Source of the DNA: a virus
Length of the DNA: 64,000 nucleotides
IMG/VR virus record: IMGVR_UViG_3300013120_000738
Span: 163,726 to 227,725 of that record
Strand: one strand, 5' to 3'
In this document: positions 17,843-54,976 of the stretch, in pieces
Numbering within the stretch: position 1 is the stretch's first letter
Layout: every line of letters starts with the position of its first letter
Program-made: the position numbers and the translations under genes
Notes under the pieces: generated by a model
Databases searched by the model: none
Told to the model about the DNA's origin: nothing
The model's input: the letters and a program-made list of their open reading frames with translations, nothing else

Positions 17843-19009
17843 CTAGAAGCGAAGCCGCCTCGCCTTCTTGTCCTTCCGGTTGAGAATGAACTGAGGCATC
17901 TCAACCGGTGTGGTAGCGATAGCAATCCTCGCCTGATTGTTGATCTCCTGCAGATGCGGATTCACCCGCAAAGTCCGCCACTCGCTCTCCTGCCAGAGAT
18001 ACTGCTGCTCCGGCATCGCAGTCCGAATCATCGGCCAGCGAGTATTCTTCGACTGAACCACCTGCTTGTGGCCCAATCCTGAATACTGCCGGAACACCCG
18101 ACCACTCATTTGCATCGTCGGACCCTTCCCCGAATCCCTCACCCACGCCGTAGCCAACGAAGGCTCATCAAAACCCTCCGTCAAGACCATGCAATTAATG
18201 AGACAAGGAATGTCGCCAGCCCGAAACGCCTGAAGTTTGTCCTCAGTCACCTTCGGCTCTCCACCGCGTACGACGTCGCTGACGATCCCTCGCTTCTGGA
18301 AGAGGTTGTGTAGCTCAAAACACTGCTCCAACTCCAGAAAGTAGAAGATCGACTTGCCCCAGCGATCCGGCTCAGCACAATAGAAATCGCAAATGGTCTC
18401 CGGATCCCACTTCGGGATCGAGAAATGGTGGTACTTGCTGAGGAAGCCATCCTGAATCAACTGATGGATACCCGCGTCCTTGATGACCTTCGAGAAGCAA
18501 AGCTTCATGCTGTCGGTCCGAAAGGGCGTCGCAGTCAGCCCAAGAACGAAGTCCGGCTCAATCGTGTTGTGCAAGTGAGTGCACGAGCTTGCGGCGTCGT
18601 GTTGTGCTTCGTCTATTATCATGAGGACCTTCTTACCGGCCTGTTTGGCGGCCAGAAGCTTCTCAGGATAACGATCGAACATCGACGTCGGGTGAAAATC
18701 CTGTAGGTCGATACCCTTCTGTGTGTTCTCGCGGCCAACCTGTCCAAGAAGGTTCCGCCGCATCGCCACCCAGCCCGTAACAAGATCAGGGAACTGAGAG
18801 CGGAGAACTTTCGCCAGAACGAGCCCCATGATGGACTTGCCGCTGCCGGTGGGACTCTCCACCATCACCGACTGCACAGCCGGTTCGATCTCGTCGGCAC
18901 CGTTCACATACTTGCCAGTGAACATGTCCACAGCTTTACCAACGATCCGACGCTGGTAGGGGCGTGGCTCCACACCTGTGCCGCTAATCGCGGCCTCGAT
19001 CCGTTTCAT
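17843..19009 (-). CDS. SF2 DNA/RNA helicase (UvsW/DEAD-like)
   Basis: 388 residues. RPYQRRIV near residue 17 is a Q-motif-like start; SPTGSGKSI is Walker A; MIIDEAQHD is the DEAQ-type Walker B; LGLTATPFR is motif III; a C-terminal RecA domain contains LTEGFDEPS and the QMSGRVFRQ arginine-finger motif VI. The family unwinds or remodels nucleic acid with ATP and supports recombination-dependent replication in phages. ATG at 19009 behind AGGAGACAGCT; own promoter-like element at 19056. Complete. Confidence 0.92.
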   Translation of the reverse strand: MKRIEAAISGTGVEPRPYQRRIVGKAVDMFTGKYVNGADEIEPAVQSVMVESPTGSGKSIMGLVLAKVLRSQFPDLVTGWVAMRRNLLGQVGRENTQKGIDLQDFHPTSMFDRYPEKLLAAKQAGKKVLMIIDEAQHDAASSCTHLHNTIEPDFVLGLTATPFRTDSMKLCFSKVIKDAGIHQLIQDGFLSKYHHFSIPKWDPETICDFYCAEPDRWGKSIFYFLELEQCFELHNLFQKRGIVSDVVRGGEPKVTEDKLQAFRAGDIPCLINCMVLTEGFDEPSLATAWVRDSGKGPTMQMSGRVFRQYSGLGHKQVVQSKNTRWPMIRTAMPEQQYLWQESEWRTLRVNPHLQEINNQARIAIATTPVEMPQFILNRKDKKARRLRF

Positions 19010-20318: not shown

Positions 20319-20975
20319 TTAAGACTCCAAGTATTCAGCAGCAGCTCTAAGCCGTTCTGGATTATCACCAAAAAGGCCTATACCACTATTACAATTCGAG
20401 CACAATAAACCACGATATTTGCCAGTTTTATGACAATGATCAATATGAAATGATGGACCAGTCGGTGATTTACAAATCTCACAAGTAGTACCCACCATTT
20501 CAGCTATTTCGAGGGCTTTTTCATTCGGCACACCCATTTTCTTACAACGACGAAGGATATGCTGTCGCTTATGAGCGGCACCAGTACAGTGCTTACAAGT
20601 AGATCTTCTACCATCATAACTATACTTGCTCTTCCAAAAATCCGTTAATGGTAGCTGACATTTACATTTGGTACAAACACGCTTACCATCTGAAAGAGTA
20701 ATCGCATGCCGGTGGCACTTTATACAAATAGAAGCTTTAGATGATTTCCGACCACCACATTGCGGACAAACATCCCTACCAGTACGAAGTTTTATATCAG
20801 TGCATTTTCTACATTGCTTCGCACGTTTGCTCTTACGAGCACCACAAGAGCATAAATCATACCGATTAGCTTGTGTTTGTGCTTTAGTTAATTGTTGTTC
20901 AACCTTCCTACAACCACCACACTGTTTGGCACGTCTATCCTTTTGCTTACCACACTTTGGGCATTTGTCTTTCAT
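20319..20975 (-). CDS. Zinc-finger/endonuclease VII-type nuclease
   Basis: 218 residues. Four successive CPKCGKQ-type zinc knuckles occupy residues 1-120, then a recombination endonuclease VII-like module: TTCEICKSP, FHIDHCHKTG, RGLLCSNCNSGIG and a C-terminal GDNPERLRAAAEYL. T4 endonuclease VII relatives resolve branched DNA, and free-standing versions behave as homing nucleases. It starts in an ATGA overlap with the GHKL gene on the same strand and is AT-rich, so it sits inside the operon without a terminator. Confidence 0.85.
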   Translation of the reverse strand: MKDKCPKCGKQKDRRAKQCGGCRKVEQQLTKAQTQANRYDLCSCGARKSKRAKQCRKCTDIKLRTGRDVCPQCGGRKSSKASICIKCHRHAITLSDGKRVCTKCKCQLPLTDFWKSKYSYDGRRSTCKHCTGAAHKRQHILRRCKKMGVPNEKALEIAEMVGTTCEICKSPTGPSFHIDHCHKTGKYRGLLCSNCNSGIGLFGDNPERLRAAAEYLES

Positions 20976-22543
20976 TTGAAGCACCAATTAAATCGAGAAA
21001 CATTTGCTAGTACACAACCCATGACTTCTGTATATTTACCAGCAAATCTCTCATCATGCCAAGACATCCCCAACCCATGAACAAACTCATGTGCAGCAAC
21101 AGCAATAAGTTGTTTCTTCCCCTCCGACTTAAAATTCCACCGCTTCTTGAAGGACTTCGAGTAGCTGGCGTTCTGCTCAACCACCTTGCACGGGTTCAAG
21201 TAATAGACTCTCCCATAATCGCCCCGCTCATGCTGAGCAGCATCATCTTCGCTGAAAAGGAATCCTATGGAGAATTCATCCTCGACATCGAACAACCGAT
21301 GCATCTCCAGCATTATCCGACCCCAAAACCGGGCCAACTTAGTACTGTGGCTGGAGAACTCACCACTGCCCGGATCATAGTAAGCCGGAACCTTCAAATC
21401 CGTCTCATTCTTAAGGACGAACTGATGCCCCAGGGTAGCAACCTGCCGACGCGGTACCGGCCGCACCTCATCCGAATAAGCAGCCGCTCTGACCGGTCGG
21501 TCAGTCTCCGCCACCAAGTGGTATAGAGGATCCTGCGGTTCGTCCCCATCGACCACATCAATTCCATCCTGTGGCGACTCGACGATAGTAGGGGCAATTT
21601 GATCCTTCTCGACCCCATTAGGATACCCAGGATGCTCCCGTACTGGCTCCGGCGGAGCAACCGGCTCTGCCACCAGGTCCACTACATCCAAAGTCCGCTG
21701 ATGGCAAAGCTTCGTCCCATGGTACTCCTTATACCGAGGACCACGCCGACGATCCTTCAAAGCCGAGGACTTATCAACCGCCAGCTCCGTCACAAAATCC
21801 GAGAGCTCATTGCGGTACGGATTTACCAGCCCGTCGCGGTTCGCCGTTAGTACGTCATTACTCGCACCTTTCAGCTCAACGATAACCGTCCTATCGAACC
21901 CAGTCGACTGGACGAACATCGGAATCCCCCCAATCCTGACACACAGACGGTATTTTTTCGACCGGTTGGTCCAAACCTTACCGAAACCCAGGTCTCTTCG
22001 AGGACTACCTTTTCGGTAGGAAGTATCCAGGGTATTCCCGTCTACTTCGAGGGTACCGCTCCATTGAGCCCAGAAGGCGAACTTGCCGAAATTCTGGCGT
22101 AATTCCTCCTGCTGATCACCCTTCATGATCACGTCCGAACGCGTACCATGAAAATAGGTCTCTTCTCGCAGATCGTAATCGCCGCCACAGCCATCCGCAA
22201 CCCACGACCCAGAATGGATCTTCCAAGACTTGTGGGTAAAATAGAGAAGCTCTTTAGCTTTACCGAACCCCCCGACAGTGTGGTCAAAGTCCTTACCGGA
22301 CTCACCCAGGGCTAAGAGTTTGTCGCAAAGCTCCTCGCGGCTCATGGGGGCACCGTTATTCTCGACGGTAACCCAAGTATCTCCCTCAGGAGTCAGGCCG
22401 ATCTTGACCTGAATGTACATGCAACCGGGAGCATCCGTACAATTCTGGAGAATCTCCCGAACCCAAGCCCAGGTCGGATCCTCATAGTCGTTGGGGACCT
22501 TAGCAAAGAAAGAAGGCCCGATACGTACCTGATGCTGTGCCAT
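20972..22543 (-). CDS. GHKL ATPase fused to a zincin-like metallopeptidase
   Basis: 523 residues, ATG at 22543 behind AGGAGATATCGACG, stop TGA. The N-terminal 200 residues carry the Bergerat ATP fold: REILQNCTDA (N-box), VENNGAPMS (metal/nucleotide box) and GGFGKAKELL (lid). The C-terminal ~100 residues contain AVAAHEFVHGLGMSWHDE, a zincin HExxH with a downstream His, then YTEVMG. Between them is a long low-complexity linker. This combination suggests ATP-driven conformational control of a protease, but the substrate is unknown and either domain could be inactive. Confidence 0.8.
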   Translation of the reverse strand: MAQHQVRIGPSFFAKVPNDYEDPTWAWVREILQNCTDAPGCMYIQVKIGLTPEGDTWVTVENNGAPMSREELCDKLLALGESGKDFDHTVGGFGKAKELLYFTHKSWKIHSGSWVADGCGGDYDLREETYFHGTRSDVIMKGDQQEELRQNFGKFAFWAQWSGTLEVDGNTLDTSYRKGSPRRDLGFGKVWTNRSKKYRLCVRIGGIPMFVQSTGFDRTVIVELKGASNDVLTANRDGLVNPYRNELSDFVTELAVDKSSALKDRRRGPRYKEYHGTKLCHQRTLDVVDLVAEPVAPPEPVREHPGYPNGVEKDQIAPTIVESPQDGIDVVDGDEPQDPLYHLVAETDRPVRAAAYSDEVRPVPRRQVATLGHQFVLKNETDLKVPAYYDPGSGEFSSHSTKLARFWGRIMLEMHRLFDVEDEFSIGFLFSEDDAAQHERGDYGRVYYLNPCKVVEQNASYSKSFKKRWNFKSEGKKQLIAVAAHEFVHGLGMSWHDERFAGKYTEVMGCVLANVSRFNWCFK

Positions 22544-22587
22544 CGTCGATATCTCCTGTGCTGAAGAATATACTTCCGATGACCCCA

Positions 22588-27872: not shown

Positions 27873-28283
27873 ATGGACAAAGAACAAGCCCAACTAAGCT
27901 GGTCACGAGCCAACAAACTCGCAGAACTCGCCGGAATCGCCCCACCGGCCGCCAGAAACTACATCTCAACCCTCAAAAAAGACACCGAAGAGGGCTGGAG
28001 ACAACTCACAACACTCCTCGACGGCGACAAGGACGCTCGAAACGGAATCATCCGAAACCACATCGACCTCGCCAAAGCCCACAAGACCCCACAAAGGGCT
28101 TCCAAGGGCGACCCCACACGCTCCCCACGGGCCGGAGCCCCCGCCGAATCCTCAAACGGTACCGAAGGAACCGCCGGGGTCGACATCAACCTCCTCCGAG
28201 CCCTAAAGAAACTCCTCACCAAGGGCTACGCACTCGAAGACATCCAAACAGGCTGCAAGTTCATCCAAGAACTACGCTCATAA
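27873..28283 (+). CDS. Hypothetical protein, 136 residues
   Basis: ATG after AAGGAAAGCATC, stop TAA. Helical N-terminus, a Ser/Pro/Gly-rich middle (residues 70-100), helical C-terminus (RALKKLLTKGYALEDIQ). Last gene of the plus trio. No family recognised. Confidence 0.7.
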   Translation: MDKEQAQLSWSRANKLAELAGIAPPAARNYISTLKKDTEEGWRQLTTLLDGDKDARNGIIRNHIDLAKAHKTPQRASKGDPTRSPRAGAPAESSNGTEGTAGVDINLLRALKKLLTKGYALEDIQTGCKFIQELRS

Positions 28284-28333
28284 GCACGCCCTAGTCCTCG
28301 ACCGCACCAGAAACATAGAACGACCCCCGACCA

Positions 28334-28348
28334 TTTCCACGGAGGAAA
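28334..28348. repeat. TTTCC-N5-GGAAA palindrome in a larger hairpin
   Basis: TTTCC, ACGGA, GGAAA is flanked by CCCCCG and CGGGGG, which extend the stem. Confidence 0.8.
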
Positions 28349-28397
28349 TCGTACGGGGGCTCCTCTTATATCCGAACGTAATCTTACGCGTTCGCAT

Positions 28398-28423
28398 AAG
28401 TCCTCATAAGGCCTTGAGGACTT
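28398..28423. terminator. Hairpin, probable terminator
   Basis: AAGTCCTCA pairs perfectly with TGAGGACTT across an 8-nt loop. Confidence 0.6.
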
Positions 28424-28440
28424 TCTAGACGCCCGCTCGA

Positions 28441-28455
28441 TTTCCTCCGTGGAAA
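28441..28455. repeat. TTTCC-N5-GGAAA palindrome
   Basis: TTTCC, TCCGT, GGAAA, nested between GCCCGC and GGCGGGC. With the copy at 28334 it forms an inverted pair about 90 bp apart. Confidence 0.8.
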
Positions 28456-28486
28456 TAACCCCCCTTTACCGGGTGGCGGGCTTCAC

Positions 28487-28602
28487 ATATATCTCCGAGC
28501 TTCTCCTTTAGCTTCCCTTGAATTCTACGCGCGTGAAGGGCCGGAAGTCCTAGAGAGTGCTTGCGGGTCAGAAAGATATCTTCCGTGGCCTCGGAGATAT
28601 AT
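28487..28602. repeat. 13-bp inverted repeat enclosing 90 bp
   Basis: ATATATCTCCGAG at 28487-28499 is the exact reverse complement of 28590-28602. The enclosed region has further small hairpins. Confidence 0.75.
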
Positions 28603-28704
28603 CCGGTCTTGTTGGTGTTTTGGAGATTCGGGTATTTTATTTCTCTGTTAGTATAGTTATTGGTCTTTGTGGTGGGTTTCTTGGGGTGATTTCCCCTTTG
28701 GGAA

Positions 28705-29165
28705 TTATTTGGGCCAGCCGGTGTGGTTTCTGAACCAGTGGGTGAGTTTTTGGATGCTTTGGGGGTCGTTGAGGTCGCATTGGTAGCAGATTGTTGGGCG
28801 GTCTGCTGGTTGGATTGTGAGGGTTGTACCTTGGATTTTTATTTTGTGGCTTGGGGCGTGGCAGCAGGTGGCGGGTTTGTCGTAGGTCCAGCGGTGTGAG
28901 CCGTCTGGTCCTTGGTAGTAGTGGATGTGGAGGTGGGTTATTTGGGTTTGGAGTTCTTGTCTTATGGCTTCTATTGTTGGGTTTTTGGGGTTTGTGGGGG
29001 TTAGGAGGATTTGGTCTGTGATGTTGAATGCTTGTAGGTGTTTGAGGATTTGTTGTGGTGTGTAGGTTTTGTGAGGGTTTTGCCTGTGGGGAGTTGTGCT
29101 GTGTAGGTTTTGTTGGGGTTTGTGAGTTTTTGGAGGTTTTTTATGGTTGCTTTGATTTTGGTCAT
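28705..29165 (-). CDS. DP-motif family protein, interrupted by a -1 frameshift
   Basis: ATG at 29165 opens a frame that ends soon after, but a -1 shift near 29065 (ACA AAA CC) continues into a long frame with natural protein composition, ending TAA at 28705 (about 153 residues). The C-terminus CYQCDLNDPQSIQKLTHWF carries the D-L-x-DPQSI motif shared with many small genes to the right. Coding strand is very rich in A and C. Sequencing error, pseudogene or programmed shift cannot be separated here. Confidence 0.6.
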
Positions 29166-29199
29166 GATTTGTGTTTATGTCGTGGAGTTCTGGGATCCA

Positions 29200-29493
29200 T
29201 TAGTTTTCGAGTTGGTCTAGGAGGTCTGTGAGGTTGTCGGGTGTGGCTCCTATCCATTCTGTGGCTGTGGTGATGGCGTTTTGGATTCCTTCGGTGATTT
29301 TTTGCATTTTTTGGACGTAGTCGTGGAGTTGGTTGTAGGCTGAGAGGCCGTGTTGGGCGACGTGTCTTGGGTCTGTAGGGATTGTTTTTTTGAGGGTTTG
29401 GTAGAGGTGTCCGAGGTATTTGCAGAGGAGGCAGTAGTTTATTGCTTTTGCTATTTGGGTGTAATAACTCGAAAAACCTTCGCAAGAATTCAC
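29200..29493 (-). CDS. Hypothetical protein, 97 residues
   Basis: GTG start overlaps the TGA of the upstream gene (GTGA), stop TAA. Helical, ending IGATPDNLTDLLDQLEN, a weak version of the DP-motif C-terminus. The gene straddles the point where base composition changes. Confidence 0.7.
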   Translation of the reverse strand: MNSCEGFSSYYTQIAKAINYCLLCKYLGHLYQTLKKTIPTDPRHVAQHGLSAYNQLHDYVQKMQKITEGIQNAITTATEWIGATPDNLTDLLDQLEN

Positions 29494-29810
29494 TCGAAAG
29501 AAGTCCTTATAATTTTTACGAGATTTTCTAGGACGTCTGGATCGGCTATTGGAAGTTTTCTATTCTCGGTACTAAAATGATGCTCTAGGAATGGGTTTTC
29601 TAGAACTACATCAAGAAAGTCACCGCTGTGATAAATCTTTGCTTGTTTTCGACTCTCGTATGGATTATGTGATTCACTGTAGACTCTAACTCGCGGAATT
29701 CTAGCGGCGTTATCAATCTCTACACCGCAATCGAAGCCCTGAGAAAGCAAGTATTCCTCGACACCGTGTAGGATCGCTGCGGTGATACCCCATTCAGCTG
29801 TCAGAATCAT
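29490..29810 (-). CDS. Hypothetical protein, 106 residues
   Basis: ATG in an ATGA overlap with the upstream gene, stop TGA overlapping the next GTG. Mixed fold (FDCGVEIDNAARIPRVRVY). No family recognised. First gene with the balanced composition typical of the region to the right. Confidence 0.7.
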   Translation of the reverse strand: MILTAEWGITAAILHGVEEYLLSQGFDCGVEIDNAARIPRVRVYSESHNPYESRKQAKIYHSGDFLDVVLENPFLEHHFSTENRKLPIADPDVLENLVKIIRTSFE

Positions 29811-30102
29811 TTTACATAGAGCGTGTTGTACTTTTTCATATCCAGCACTTCTTCTGCCACATCCTCAAAAATCTGAGGGTCTGCTGTAGCGATTGGCAAA
29901 TTCAACCTCTCTAGTTCTTTCTCTAACACAGCTTCCAAATCATCGGTGTGTAAGTCGACTAATACTCCAGGACCAGGGTTGATAATTACTCTTACGGTTT
30001 GAGGTCAAGAATTATGATTTCAGCGTCAGGCTCTTCGAGGCCATTAGCACTTACTTCAACCCTGTTGACTCCTCTGCTGAGGAGCCGGAAGAAATACCTC
30101 AC
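29807..30102 (-). CDS. Hypothetical protein, interrupted by a -1 frameshift
   Basis: GTG at 30102 overlaps the TGA of the upstream gene and opens a 36-codon frame ending TAA at 29992. A -1 shift at AAA CC continues without a start codon into a well-formed 60-residue frame ending TGA at 29807, overlapping the next ATG. The joined product (about 98 residues) reads smoothly across the join. Sequencing error or a programmed shift are both possible. Confidence 0.55.
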
Positions 30103-30323
30103 TTCCAATGCCCTTCTGCATCATCAAACTCGTCAGCTAGCCTTTGAGCTCTTATCCGGCGATTCTCCATCGATTCATGATCTTGGCCGGTGAGTTGTTT
30201 GTAAACCTCGTTGTAGGCCTCGGCTTGGCTAAGAGCCATACCGGGGTCACGAAGTTCACAGTTGAGCAATACAATGAGTGGTCCTACAGACGATTCTGAG
30301 AGTTGGATTGTTTTACCCGCCAT
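30099..30323 (-). CDS. Helical hypothetical protein, 74 residues
   Basis: ATG behind CCGGAGGAATCCT, stop TGA. MAGKTIQLSESSVGPLIVLLNCEL then helical and basic. No family recognised. Confidence 0.7.
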   Translation of the reverse strand: MAGKTIQLSESSVGPLIVLLNCELRDPGMALSQAEAYNEVYKQLTGQDHESMENRRIRAQRLADEFDDAEGHWK

Positions 30324-30768
30324 AGGATTCCTCCGGCCTGTAATGCCGAACCATTCGCTCGGCATAGTGTTTCACGAGAGTATCCTGGTAAACCATTCTT
30401 CTGCCCGAAGAGCAGACCTGATCAGCATCAATAGGTTGGAACCACCTGTTGAACCAATGAGGATTCCCGCGACCACTTGTCTTGACTTTCGAAAGTCTTT
30501 CTAGGACTTCTTCGTCGTCTAGGATTACGGAGTGTACTGCGTCCTCGGCGACGGGCATCGCTGCGAGCATAACGTGATCGAAGGAGTTGAATTCGCAGTC
30601 TGCGTACAGTTTGATTTTTGGTATACGCTGTTGAACCGCCGCTTCGATACGCTTAATGACATCATCCGGAAGCTCAAAAGGGAATCCTGGATATGCCTTC
30701 AGCTTGTTCCTGGGGTCAGGTCTGCAAAGCGACAGCGTTCTTCTCGCGAATGGATTGCTCATTTTCAT
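30313..30768 (-). CDS. Hypothetical protein, 151 residues
   Basis: ATG in an ATGA overlap, ends 11 bp inside the next gene. Mixed fold; DDVIKRIEAAVQQRIPKIKLY in the middle. No family recognised. Confidence 0.7.
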   Translation of the reverse strand: MKMSNPFARRTLSLCRPDPRNKLKAYPGFPFELPDDVIKRIEAAVQQRIPKIKLYADCEFNSFDHVMLAAMPVAEDAVHSVILDDEEVLERLSKVKTSGRGNPHWFNRWFQPIDADQVCSSGRRMVYQDTLVKHYAERMVRHYRPEESYGG

Positions 30769-30947
30769 TCTTTTGGTAACTCGTTGTCCAGGAGATCTTT
30801 AAGATCCTCGAACGTCACACCAGATTGTTTTTGGCACTGTTCGATCGTGTACTGGCGAGACCGCGCAAGAGCTATGGCTGTATCCGCTCTGTCCCGCATC
30901 CATGTGGCGATTCTATCGATCGCTTTTTCACGTTCTTCTGGTGTCAT
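30765..30947 (-). CDS. Helical hypothetical protein, 60 residues
   Basis: ATGA overlaps at both ends, so coupled translation. EEREKAIDRIATWMRDRADT is a clear amphipathic helix; the rest is also helical. Confidence 0.7.
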   Translation of the reverse strand: MTPEEREKAIDRIATWMRDRADTAIALARSRQYTIEQCQKQSGVTFEDLKDLLDNELPKE

Positions 30948-31144
30948 TGTTCTTCCGCTGCTCGTATAGTGCTAACGGTTTTGACAACAACTTCAACAGC
31001 GTCGACTTTGCGGGCCAACTCGCCCTCATCTACTCGCCTGTTGTGAATGACTTGTCCACACTTTACGGCGTGTTCTGAGAAATACTTCTTGTCTGTATAG
31101 CCCTTGTCGGCATCAACGTACTGAAGTCTGTATTCGTGTTGCAT
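30944..31144 (-). CDS. Hypothetical protein, 66 residues
   Basis: ATG behind GTGAGGAAGCG, stop TGA overlapping the next ATG. Mixed fold, one Cys, no family recognised. Confidence 0.7.
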   Translation of the reverse strand: MQHEYRLQYVDADKGYTDKKYFSEHAVKCGQVIHNRRVDEGELARKVDAVEVVVKTVSTIRAAEEQ

Positions 31145-31151
31145 CGCTTCC

Positions 31152-31649
31152 TCACGAAGTCAAGAGTGGTTGGTCACAGTGAAACCGAACGTAACTCCGA
31201 CCCGACGCGGTGAGGATATGCTGGCAAAGCCAGTCGAAATCCTCAGTACTCATGAGCATCGTGCAGGCCGGGATGTTGTCGAGCATCTCTTTTTGCCAAT
31301 CAGCATGACGCTGTCGCTCGTGTTCGACGTCGTAATCGCCAGTCCTAAAAGGCGAATTGGATCGGTCATTAAAGGGCTCGAAGCCACCACCGACAACCAA
31401 TCCCTTACCGGCCTCAAAAACGTTGAAAGGACGATCCTCTTCACGATCGGACTTCCAGAGGAAGGCGAATGGAAGGCCACAAGCGATACTTTGGATTTCA
31501 TTCGGAATTACGGGGGTCCTGTCGCGGTTTTCGGCGAACATGAACTGCCACGTACATTGGCCGGTTTTGCCAAGTTTGTCCGTGGTCACGATTAGGATTG
31601 TTTTGTCCTGTTCGACGGATTCCTGTGTGAGTTCTGCTGTATCGCTCAT
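31152..31649 (-). CDS. Hypothetical protein, 165 residues
   Basis: ATG behind AAGGAGAACCC, stop TGA. N-terminal helix, beta-rich centre, C-terminal CQHILTASGRSYVRFHCDQ. First gene of the coupled operon down to 29200; promoter-like element at 31682. Confidence 0.7.
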   Translation of the reverse strand: MSDTAELTQESVEQDKTILIVTTDKLGKTGQCTWQFMFAENRDRTPVIPNEIQSIACGLPFAFLWKSDREEDRPFNVFEAGKGLVVGGGFEPFNDRSNSPFRTGDYDVEHERQRHADWQKEMLDNIPACTMLMSTEDFDWLCQHILTASGRSYVRFHCDQPLLTS

Positions 31650-31681
31650 GGGTTCTCCTTCAGATTATTTGATTTCTATAA

Positions 31682-31710
31682 TGTGACAAAAGGTATCGAA
31701 AGAGTTAAAT
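31682..31710 (-). promoter_or_regulatory. Bipartite promoter-like element
   Basis: ATTTAAC then TGTCACA on the minus strand, 33 bp upstream of the start at 31649. It is the last of the dense array of full matches. Confidence 0.7.
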
Positions 31711-32023
31711 CATGGTTGAGCTAAATCAACGTTAAAATGAGCTGCCAATCGCGTCATTAGGTCAATGAAATCGTCATAATCAGGACCGAGAGGCGTTGCA
31801 TCAGTATAGCGGTCTTTAACAACTCGAAATTGAGTGGCCGAATATGGTAATTCATGATCTGGAATGTCGGCTATAAAATCAGATAGAGCAATGACTCTAT
31901 TCCATAGTTTTAGTCCAGAGCATCTATAATCTCGGGCTACACAGAAAATTCGATATCAACGATCCAACACTCATAGAGAGAATAAGGAATTTCTTTGATG
32001 CGGAAAATTCTCGTTGTCAACAT
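31710..32023 (-). CDS. Hypothetical protein, interrupted by a -1 frameshift
   Basis: ATG at 32023 overlaps the upstream stop and opens a frame ending TAG at 31937. A -1 shift there (TCT GTG TAG to GTA GCC) joins a natural 76-residue frame ending TGA at 31710; together about 104 residues. The second part contains PDYDDFIDLMTRLAAHF, similar to the DP-motif C-termini. Third such lesion within 3 kb. Confidence 0.55.
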
Positions 32024-32124
32024 TCCTGATCATTTAGTTGATTCTTATGGGAAGATTTCAAACAGTGCTTTAATCCGGCTTCATCGGCTATCGCCGCGAG
32101 TAGCTCAGGGACCATTTGGATCAT
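32017..32124 (-). CDS. 35-residue hypothetical peptide
   Basis: ATG 3 bp after the upstream TAG with AGGA almost adjacent, stop TGA overlapping the next ATG. Helical first half (MVPELLAAIADEAGLKH). Small, so only moderately supported. Confidence 0.4.
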   Translation of the reverse strand: MIQMVPELLAAIADEAGLKHCLKSSHKNQLNDQEC

Positions 32125-32126
32125 TC

Positions 32127-32354
32127 CTAAAAACCCGCTTGTAATCGCCCTATTGCGTTTTCTATTCCATTGCCGCTTTTTCTTTTATCGTCCCGACCAA
32201 GCAAAGTGTCTATGAGTGGGAGGCCTAGCTGTTGGCGGACGTAATTATTCAGGCTTAAGTCCGCAGCCTTAGCCCTTCTGTTCAAATCGTGTCTTTCGCT
32301 TTCGTGTCCCCTTACGGTGACAATAACGATGCACTTTTCCGGCTGTTCATCCAC
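32127..32354 (-). CDS. Ribbon-helix-helix-like protein
   Basis: 75 residues. An N-terminal beta strand (CIVIVTVRGH) followed by RHDLNRRAKAADLSLNNYVR matches the ribbon-helix-helix arrangement of small DNA-binding proteins or antitoxins. GTG overlaps the TAG of the upstream gene. Autoregulation is typical of the family but not shown here. Confidence 0.55.
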   Translation of the reverse strand: MDEQPEKCIVIVTVRGHESERHDLNRRAKAADLSLNNYVRQQLGLPLIDTLLGRDDKRKSGNGIENAIGRLQAGF

Positions 32355-32758
32355 TATTTGATCTCCCTATCCCAGGACTTGCCAACTTCCCATGGATGCT
32401 TACCGTCTTCTTTCATGGCTTTCGCATCCTCTGAGAGTGTTTCTGTAATGGCGTTTAGAAATTGCTCAAAGGTACAGTTATAGAATACATTCTTTGTATT
32501 GCTCAATACTATAACGCCACCAATTATTGTATTATCTTCAAGAGTAAGTGTACCTCTTCCAATACCATCATCATCGTCGACCAGAAGATTACGTAAATCC
32601 TTAACTGTACGTGATGCTGGCGACTGTGACAAAGGAATATCGGCGCATTCAGTAAACTTGAGCCTAGCACACTCCGCATCTGGTACATCAATAGCAAAAT
32701 CGAAAACAAAACTTTTTTCGCTTTTTTCAGTGATTCGTACTAAAAAACTACCACTCAC
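32354..32758 (-). CDS. Hypothetical protein, 134 residues
   Basis: GTG in a GTGA overlap, stop TAG. Beta-rich N-terminus, central DDDDGIGRGTLTLEDN, helical C-terminus. The DNA at 32603-32623 repeats 706-726. No family recognised. Confidence 0.65.
   Translation of the reverse strand: MSGSFLVRITEKSEKSFVFDFAIDVPDAECARLKFTECADIPLSQSPASRTVKDLRNLLVDDDDGIGRGTLTLEDNTIIGGVIVLSNTKNVFYNCTFEQFLNAITETLSEDAKAMKEDGKHPWEVGKSWDREIK
32603..32623. repeat. 21-bp direct repeat, copy 2
   Basis: Identical to 706-726. Confidence 0.85.
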
Positions 32759-32994
32759 TGCACGATCCCTCGTATTTCGAAGCTGTACTTAGCCTTACCG
32801 AGAAGCCACCAAACCAGAATTCCAGTTGCAAGATCTCCGTTGGGCAATATCGCTTTTTGTGGTTTGGCTTTCAGCTCATTCAATGCTGCTGGTCTGCCTT
32901 CTATGAGCATTACTTCTGCGTTTGGGTCTTCAATACCTCCATCATCAAGCAATAAATAATTGCCATTGTCTTTTACGACCCTGTAAGCTCTCAT
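32755..32994 (-). CDS. Hypothetical protein, 79 residues
   Basis: ATGA overlap with the upstream gene, GTGA with the downstream one. Beta-rich. No family recognised. Confidence 0.65.
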   Translation of the reverse strand: MRAYRVVKDNGNYLLLDDGGIEDPNAEVMLIEGRPAALNELKAKPQKAILPNGDLATGILVWWLLGKAKYSFEIRGIVQ

Positions 32995-33320
32995 CCGTTC
33001 ACCGCAATAATAACTCTTTCATTCCCGTGGTTTTGAATTTGTAGGACTCTTGTAACGACAGGCTTTAATTCAAGAATGGGAGGTTCCGGCTCCCATTCGA
33101 GCATGTCATAGTCATAGGGATCATCGTCCCAATCCCAATATTCGTCCTGATCGTCCCACCCGTCGTCCCATTCGTCTTCGGGTTCATCGTCATACGGGCT
33201 CAAATTGTCCCAGGTCTCTTCTTCGAGATCGGCAAGATCTAAAGCCGCATCAGCCCATTCATCTTCAAGTTCTTGCCGCCAATCAAGCTTCTCGCGTCGT
33301 TCCTTCTTTCGGATCGGCAT
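32991..33320 (-). CDS. Asp/Trp-rich acidic protein
   Basis: 109 residues, ATG behind GGAGGAGATTA, stop TGA. Residues 45-80 are almost only Asp, Glu, Trp, Tyr and Pro (DEWDDGWDDQDEYWDWDDD), so strongly negative and probably disordered, possibly a DNA mimic. N-terminus basic. Confidence 0.65.
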   Translation of the reverse strand: MPIRKKERREKLDWRQELEDEWADAALDLADLEEETWDNLSPYDDEPEDEWDDGWDDQDEYWDWDDDPYDYDMLEWEPEPPILELKPVVTRVLQIQNHGNERVIIAVNG

Positions 33321-33961
33321 TAATCTCCTCCACACGGTCCGCCGTTCAACTTACAGAGATACTCGTCTTCGTAGAGATTTGGTCCCACCCGGTTGCAGAT
33401 CGGGCAACCGTAAGCGAACTGGTAGTCGATAGCCGGGACGCCATCAAGCCGAAGAAGACTTCGATCAATCCCAAGTTCATTTGCGACTTGCGTGAGAGCC
33501 AGTGAAGGATCCCAAGGACCCGAATCCGGTATCCGGAGGACTCCAACGACTTCCTCGAACGGGTGTTCGTGATCTACATAAGCATCCGAGTGTTCAACCT
33601 CGATCGTCCTCGGTGCCTTCTTCATCACTGCGTAATAGTCCATCTTAGGTCTCCTGAGTTTGTGGTTTCTCAGGTGTGACAGGCCCATGCTTCTTGGATA
33701 TCGAACAAGTGACGCTAAAATCTCCTCCAAATCAACATCAGGCTTTGATAAATCAAAAGCATATTGTTCAGCATCATGAGGCAGTGCTATCGTAAAAGGT
33801 TGGGCGGCAAGAATTATAGCAAGAAGAGACTTATCTAATGATTTGTCTACAGAATCGACGGGTTCGTCAGTCTCTATGTAAATTCCATGTCCTATTGCGT
33901 GGGCATACAAAGGCTCTTCCAAATGCTTATTCAGATAATCAAGAACTAGTTGCAGGAGCAT
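33320..33961 (-). CDS. Two-part protein: DP-motif domain read through into a Cys-cluster protein
   Basis: One open frame of about 213 residues. Residues 1-106 resemble the adjacent gene at 33939 (shared L-S-x-P-x-VDLE-x2-L-x2-L). At ATG 33643, behind the strong site AGGAGACCTAAG, a second natural start gives a 107-residue protein with CPICNRVG...CKLNGGPCGG, a four-Cys cluster. TGTCACA lies about 40 bp before that start. Possibly two genes joined by loss of a stop codon. Ends TAA. Confidence 0.6.
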   Translation of the reverse strand: MLLQLVLDYLNKHLEEPLYAHAIGHGIYIETDEPVDSVDKSLDKSLLAIILAAQPFTIALPHDAEQYAFDLSKPDVDLEEILASLVRYPRSMGLSHLRNHKLRRPKMDYYAVMKKAPRTIEVEHSDAYVDHEHPFEEVVGVLRIPDSGPWDPSLALTQVANELGIDRSLLRLDGVPAIDYQFAYGCPICNRVGPNLYEDEYLCKLNGGPCGGD

Positions 33962-34244
33962 GATTCGCCACAAAATCTCTTACTTTGATATCCCTAATTA
34001 ACTGATCTAAGACCCTCTCAAGATCGACGCTAGGATTGCTAAGGTCATAGGCGGAACTTGAGATACCTGTACAAAGCAAATGTGCTATTTCTACTGTAGA
34101 GCCATAAATAAAAATACGAGTCATAACAGTATCAGAAACTGAAATATCAATCCTGTGCCCGTTCCACACTCCGTATGATTGTACATGATACGCAAAAATC
34201 CTGTACCTGAGATAAGACACGATTATATCAACTAATTGACTCAT
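33939..34244 (-). CDS. DP-motif family small protein
   Basis: 101 residues, ATG overlapping the upstream TGA, stop TGA. N-terminal helix, beta core, then YDLSNPSVDLERVLDQL, the family C-terminal motif. Function unknown. Confidence 0.7.
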   Translation of the reverse strand: MSQLVDIIVSYLRYRIFAYHVQSYGVWNGHRIDISVSDTVMTRIFIYGSTVEIAHLLCTGISSSAYDLSNPSVDLERVLDQLIRDIKVRDFVANHAPATSS

Positions 34245-54836: not shown

Positions 54837-54902
54837 TTATGTTGTCACGTCATCTCATTGATCCTTACATGATTTTTGCTCTAGATTTTAAATACGTCAG
54901 AG

Positions 54903-54976
54903 CGCCCCCGGCAGGATTCGAACCTGCAACACACTGTTTTGAAGACAGCCGAGCTAACCAATTGCCCCACGGGGGC
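54903..54976 (-). tRNA. tRNA with anticodon UCA (opal suppressor, Trp-like)
   Basis: Complete cloverleaf of 74 nt: acceptor GCCCCCG/CGGGGGC, D-stem GGGC/GCTC with loop AATTGGTTA, anticodon stem GCTGT/ACAGT with loop CTTCAAA, 5-nt variable region, T-stem GCAGG/CCTGC with loop TTCGAAT. Positions 34-36 are TCA, so it reads UGA. Short variable arm excludes selenocysteine tRNA. G73 and overall shape suit tryptophan. CCA is not encoded. Confidence 0.88.

Follow-up and report, generated by a model that had tools for sequence, protein, structure and literature searches.

The window analyzed here is the 64,000-nucleotide terminal part (positions 163,726 to 227,725) of the 227,725-base record IMGVR_UViG_3300013120_000738, which is classed as viral. 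On its minus strand, at 20972-22543, lies an open frame of 523 residues with an ATG start and a TGA stop, for which we find full-length homology to 39 other loci; the plus strand carries stops. A ribosome-binding site, AGGAG at 22553-22557 on the same strand, is seen directly in the sequence, 9 nt ahead of the start codon at 22543. The encoded protein joins a GHKL ATPase to a zincin in one chain, a conclusion that is well supported. Both halves have known folds; as far as tested, their pairing and the family defined by it are undescribed.

Domains and motifs of the fusion protein

Residues 1-267 (21743-22543; all parts of the gene are on the minus strand) are predicted to form a GHKL ATPase followed by a transducer-like domain. 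This half carries the N-box REILQNCTD (residues 29-37; 22433-22459), a G1 box NNGAPM (residues 62-67; 22343-22360), which reads ENNGAPM with the preceding residue 61 and has Asn for the canonical Asp and GxP for GxG, a G2 box GGFGKA (residues 91-96; 22256-22273) and the motif TANRD (residues 233-237; 21833-21847), which contains the invariant transducer arginine. A disordered linker (residues 286-367; 21443-21688), with an AlphaFold2 pLDDT below 50 at 286-369, separates it from a Wss1-like zincin domain (residues 368-523; 20975-21442). There, HEFVH (residues 485-489; 21077-21091) is the predicted zinc site with its catalytic glutamate, H496 (21056-21058) is the presumed third zinc ligand, and the whole C-terminal motif reads HEFVHGLGMSWHDE (residues 485-498). 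The full AlphaFold2 model has a mean pLDDT of 79, with values above 90 in both domains.

An earlier note on this DNA, made from the sequence alone, had read a GHKL ATPase and a zincin-like peptidase from motifs in this one protein. Both domains are indeed predicted with high confidence, and the fold predicted around the C-terminal motif is a zincin. The N-box, GGFGK and HEFVH motifs hold; the 'NNG' is there too but is not the canonical form, the family having D(D/N)GxGM as its consensus, from which the window's clade deviates. The same note knew no standard phage protein with this pairing, and we found no known family that has it in the family libraries or literature searched (open-licence papers). 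Pfam gives at most weak HATPase and Matrixin matches to the window protein, PHROGs no match at E <0.02, PADLOC no firm match, and a PDB sequence search with this protein alone no match; NCBIfam gives a match below threshold, to the sacsin N-terminal ATP-binding-like domain (E 2e-6, 27.9 bits versus a cutoff of 50). An AAA+ ATP-dependent protease was considered and rejected: there is no AAA+ or Walker domain, and the fold is GHKL.

Family members, conservation and history

The family comprises 40 non-redundant members: 31 are viral (the window included), and nine lie on bacterial contigs, of which most are megaplasmids. When viral and genome contigs were scanned with a single protein, no relatives were returned, so that an alignment is needed to detect them; the scan based on an alignment yielded 34 viral loci with relatives, some of them in records 200-494 kb long, and three bacterial contigs. 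Two loci (L016 and L017; 39 bits, no HExxH) were excluded. The window protein also matches proteins on six megaplasmids, from Pseudomonas, Rhizobium, Bosea and Methylorubrum; these are annotated, where at all, as 'hypothetical protein' or 'ATP-binding protein', and all six have HExxH at their C-terminus. A tblastn search with six members from different parts of the family, the window protein among them, revealed no relative among 50,697 phage records. The full architecture was sought in 274 genomes of one bacterial class and in 289 of a second one; it was present only in the search-centre genome, six short GHKL-only matches being disregarded. As far as sampled, the family is rare in cells and occurs mainly in viruses and on megaplasmids.

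Residues H485, E486, H489, H496, W407, G427, R236, G64, K84, G91, G94 and A96 are invariant (40/40 members), and R29, E30, Q33, N34 and D37 are kept in 38/38, two further members having no such stretch. Apart from these two, incomplete at the N-box, not one of the 40 has lost either active site. A chance HExxH is ruled out by its conservation in all members, and a one-off or an annotation artefact by the relatives in 34 viral loci, plasmids and bacterial contigs. Pairwise distances in the N- and C-terminal domains are correlated (Mantel r 0.785, with 0 of 2000 permutations as high); because the two domains co-diverge, their history fits a single, old fusion, and the same test rules out a recent or repeated one. 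In the tree, the bacterial and plasmid members are nested among viral members in two separate groups, which makes it probable that phages and bacterial replicons have exchanged the gene on more than one occasion. The family genes at L042, L045 and L047 encode 1060-1170 aa, with several hundred additional residues C-terminal to the zincin domain.

The GHKL half and its nucleotide site

The closest folds to residues 1-267 are those of MORC2/MORC4 (Z 17) and TRAP1 (Z 16.6), together with Hsp90, MutL and topoisomerase VI-B, and Foldseek gives an E of 1e-10 for this half; viral fold matches are mostly RIIA. Profile comparison likewise returns MutL (E 7e-8) and MORC3 (E 1e-6). The family shares with MORC, MutL, topoisomerase VI-B and Hsp90/TRAP1 a GHKL fold followed by a transducer-like domain, but has a zincin where those proteins have CW/coiled-coil, endonuclease, topoisomerase or chaperone parts.

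The resemblance to phage RIIA (T4 rIIA) is one of distant homology and is confined to the N-terminal GHKL half (hhalign 96.6%, E 5e-10), which by profile score is about equally close to RIIA, MutL and MORC; the invariant TxNRD of the family aligns by eye with SRE of RIIA. A plain RIIA identity is ruled out: the C-terminal half has no detectable similarity to RIIA, none of seven RIIA proteins has HExxH, and phrog_612 (RIIA) matches neither the window protein nor anything in 16 records with the family gene.

The window protein has the fold, the G2 box and the N-box catalytic Glu (E30) and Mg-binding Asn (N34; both 38/38) that characterize the GHKL superfamily. What it lacks is the G1 Asp of DxGxG, replaced by N62 with P66 downstream, and this sets its clade apart from MORC, MutL, topoisomerase VI-B and Hsp90 as well. 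Across the 40 members, position 62 is Asp in 29, Asn in ten (the window and nine relatives) and Gly in one; Asn is nearly always paired with a Gly-to-Pro change at position 66, and the ten Asn62 members form one supported clade together with one Asp-bearing member. The G1 Asp contacts adenine in GHKL ATPases, and its change to Asn abolishes ATP binding in Hsp90. With Asn in place of this adenine-binding residue, canonical ATP binding is doubtful in the window's clade.

We may hypothesize that the clade, window included, has lost nucleotide switching altogether and retains its GHKL half as a fixed or differently regulated scaffold. The replacement of D and G by N62 and P66, and the effect of the same Asp-to-Asn change in Hsp90, would agree with this. 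However, E30, N34, K84 and the G2 box are invariant in the Asn clade, a pattern that drift after loss would not give, and we regard such a loss as improbable. Because the other nucleotide-site residues are invariant, a change in nucleotide preference seems more likely than a loss of binding. Judging from these residues, then, the window protein has the GHKL fold but an altered nucleotide site; the GHKL ATPase fold behind the earlier suggestion of an 'ATP-gated' protease is there, but the gating by ATP is doubtful for this protein.

The zincin half

Folded alone, the C-terminal domain has a pLDDT of 89 and resembles Wss1 first (Z 9.8-9.7), then YbeY (1oz9, Z 9.6), selecase and SPRTN (6mdx, Z 7.7). 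The structural alignment with Wss1 has an rmsd of 3.0-3.2 over 114-115 residues at about 10% identity. In Foldseek, Wss1 and minigluzincins fill the first seven rows (E 0.03-0.14; domain E 0.027, prob 0.99), and when the C-terminal profile is compared with solved sequences, proabylysin and two Wss1 proteins come out as the top three, with weak E values of 0.05-0.08. Among family members the commonest Pfam matches are WLM and YgjP-like (7/29 each; WLM best domain E 1.2e-4), with no SprT match among those listed. The domain is thus similar to Wss1/WLM proteases and to minigluzincins (abylysin, jannalysin, selecase) in the predicted fold of residues 368-523, in its top profile matches and in its HExxH(x5-7)H motif, the HExxH and the downstream His being present in 40/40 members. 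It differs from Wss1/WLM in its low structural identity, in its fusion to a GHKL half and in scores that stay under the Pfam cutoff, for which reason we file it as WLM-like rather than WLM.

The near tie between YbeY and Wss1 raises the question of whether this domain is a protease at all. It may instead be a metal-dependent nuclease or hydrolase of the YbeY kind, or an effector that binds metal without catalysis; in either case the GHKL half would act as its switch. However, the metal motif of YbeY is HGxLHLxGxDH, with Gly at position 2, where all 40 members have the catalytic Glu of HExxH, and the Pfam matches are to WLM, YgjP-like and other peptidases. On this evidence a non-protease is quite improbable.

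At one locus (L009:5070-5765, plus strand), the family gene is directly preceded by another ORF, of 232 aa, which carries HELAHHEGWKHDSEF and has a weak WLM match (E 0.0066). By its sequence, this is a second, standalone WLM-like peptidase.

Genomic context

The next gene in the window encodes an endonuclease VII-like protein (20319-20975, minus strand; PF02945 E 1.4e-20), and direct reading shows its ATG overlapping the TGA of the fusion gene (ATGA). As a conserved neighbour it is unsupported, adjoining the family gene in the window only. A DNA helicase gene (17843-19009, minus strand; phrog_16 E 1e-34) shows linkage to the family gene: of 12 records from the window's clade, three have a helicase, and in each of these its distance to the family gene is at most about 3.3 kb.

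Across loci, Pfam and PHROGs matches for 82 nearby genes include six integrases and two each of Ku, UvsX/RecA, UvrD-type helicases and clamp loader, besides RadC, Lon and endonuclease VII. Integrases are found at 6/9 bacterial or plasmid loci (L005, L006, L007, L013, L011, L012), which form two clades; on two gammaproteobacterial contigs (L011:7468-10591 and L012:38-3000), RadC, the family gene and a tyrosine recombinase follow one another in that order on one strand. In viral records, a tyrosine recombinase is present in 4/16 and adjoins the family gene in none, so that the recombinase neighbour is confined to bacterial and plasmid loci. As raw counts, the neighbours point to DNA transactions. 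On a Rhizobium plasmid, two adjacent genes lie just upstream of the family gene (L004:4033-5758, minus strand); one is clearly homologous to Ku, and the other probably accounts for the second Ku match.

This context and the presence on megaplasmids bear on another possible role, that of a chaperone-protease processing phage structural proteins during assembly. Such a role would agree with the Hsp90-like N-terminal half and with the maturation proteases that large phages commonly have. However, the family occurs on megaplasmids that make no virion, which speaks against a role in the virion alone, and genes of DNA metabolism are numerous among the neighbours that can be named; we find this explanation very unlikely.

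In the window's own record (G000), no terminase was found with two families and one relative as queries, and the record is probably partial; its viral nature therefore rests on the IMG/VR label and on phage-type neighbours. Elsewhere, in the record of the L026 locus (G569, C1:180475-184830, minus strand), large terminase matches fall in three pieces within one 1455-codon frame, which looks like a terminase gene with two inteins. The window also contains a tRNA-SeC-like gene with anticodon tca (54902-54976, minus strand), possibly a phage UGA-reading tRNA, and its G+C content drops from ~0.53 to ~0.43 at about 28000-34000 and stays low from there to the window end.

Possible functions

GHKL proteins with a transducer-type second domain, such as MutL, topoisomerase VI, Hsp90 and MORC, dimerize on ATP and trap DNA or clients. 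As the best-supported reading, we tentatively propose that the fusion protein works as a nucleotide-switched clamp protease whose targets are proteins bound to DNA. Its GHKL and transducer half is predicted to dimerize upon nucleotide binding, as in MORC, Hsp90, MutL and topoisomerase VI-B; the closed dimer would encircle DNA or a DNA-bound client and deliver that client to the tethered zinc protease, a Wss1-like enzyme that would cut tightly bound or covalently trapped proteins (crosslinks, roadblocks, stalled recombinases) off the DNA. Large replicons such as jumbo phages and megaplasmids would benefit by keeping replication and recombination running. Wss1 and SPRTN are described as cutting proteins crosslinked to DNA (PMC4559962, PMC5127644).

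Dimer closure, proteolysis and a DNA-bound substrate are what we infer here, the substrate from the fold and the neighbours. The clamp protease is supported by catalytic residues that are invariant in both halves of divergent members, by the co-divergence of the two domains, by the fold matches of each half and by the helicase linkage in the three records that have one; DNA-bound proteins are favoured as substrate because many of the neighbours that can be named belong to DNA recombination and repair and because the family occurs on megaplasmids. Several observations weigh against it: canonical ATP binding is in doubt in the window's clade, neighbours vary widely between loci, no DNA-binding domain was identified in the fusion protein, the Foldseek E for the C-terminal domain is weak (0.03), the best whole-protein WLM score (19 bits) falls below the Pfam cutoff of 26, and the non-protease YbeY is nearly equal to Wss1 in fold.

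A GHKL ATPase placed in one chain with an effector has a parallel in VcSduA, a Shedu defence protein in which a GHKL N-terminal domain and a clamp-like middle domain are proposed to control the C-terminal effector; that effector, however, is a PD-(D/E)xK nuclease rather than a protease, and the system is one of bacterial defence (PMC12137116). Zincin peptidase domains also occur on phages and plasmids in polyvalent proteins and ArdC-like proteins, but the polyvalent-protein zincins have other partner domains, and the text of that paper mentions neither GHKL, HSP90 nor histidine kinase (PMC5512222).

The fusion protein could likewise be a counter-defence protease, its GHKL half recognizing a defence complex of the host or of a rival phage and its zincin half cutting it. 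The very patchy distribution of the family fits this, and SprT-like and ArdC-like zincins of jumbo phages have been proposed to cut host proteins. However, RIIA proteins have no zincin, the family is also found on bacterial megaplasmids, and no defence or anti-defence family is among the best 25 neighbour families listed. We consider this role unlikely, and the earlier note's proposal that the protein removes a host or defence protein gains no direct support from a gene that is shared with megaplasmids and often neighbours DNA recombination and repair genes.

Known ATP-dependent proteases are AAA+ machines, and a GHKL-type ATPase coupled in one chain to a protease is not known to us. More speculatively, and with some doubt, the clamp protease might represent a nucleotide-dependent protease of a new class apart from AAA+, in which a GHKL clamp closing on DNA drives a tethered Wss1-like peptidase. 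It would be a prokaryotic, one-chain counterpart of eukaryotic DNA-protein-crosslink proteolysis, with the switch of the window's clade moved off canonical adenine recognition. If so, jumbo phages and megaplasmids would carry another route for coupling a nucleotide switch to proteolysis. One family member is present in Methylorubrum extorquens AM1 (megaplasmid NC_012811, at about 516-519 kb), a laboratory strain which makes formaldehyde, a DNA-protein crosslinker, from methanol, so that the crosslink idea would be directly testable there. If it holds, the family could be how large mobile genomes clear proteins stuck on their DNA.
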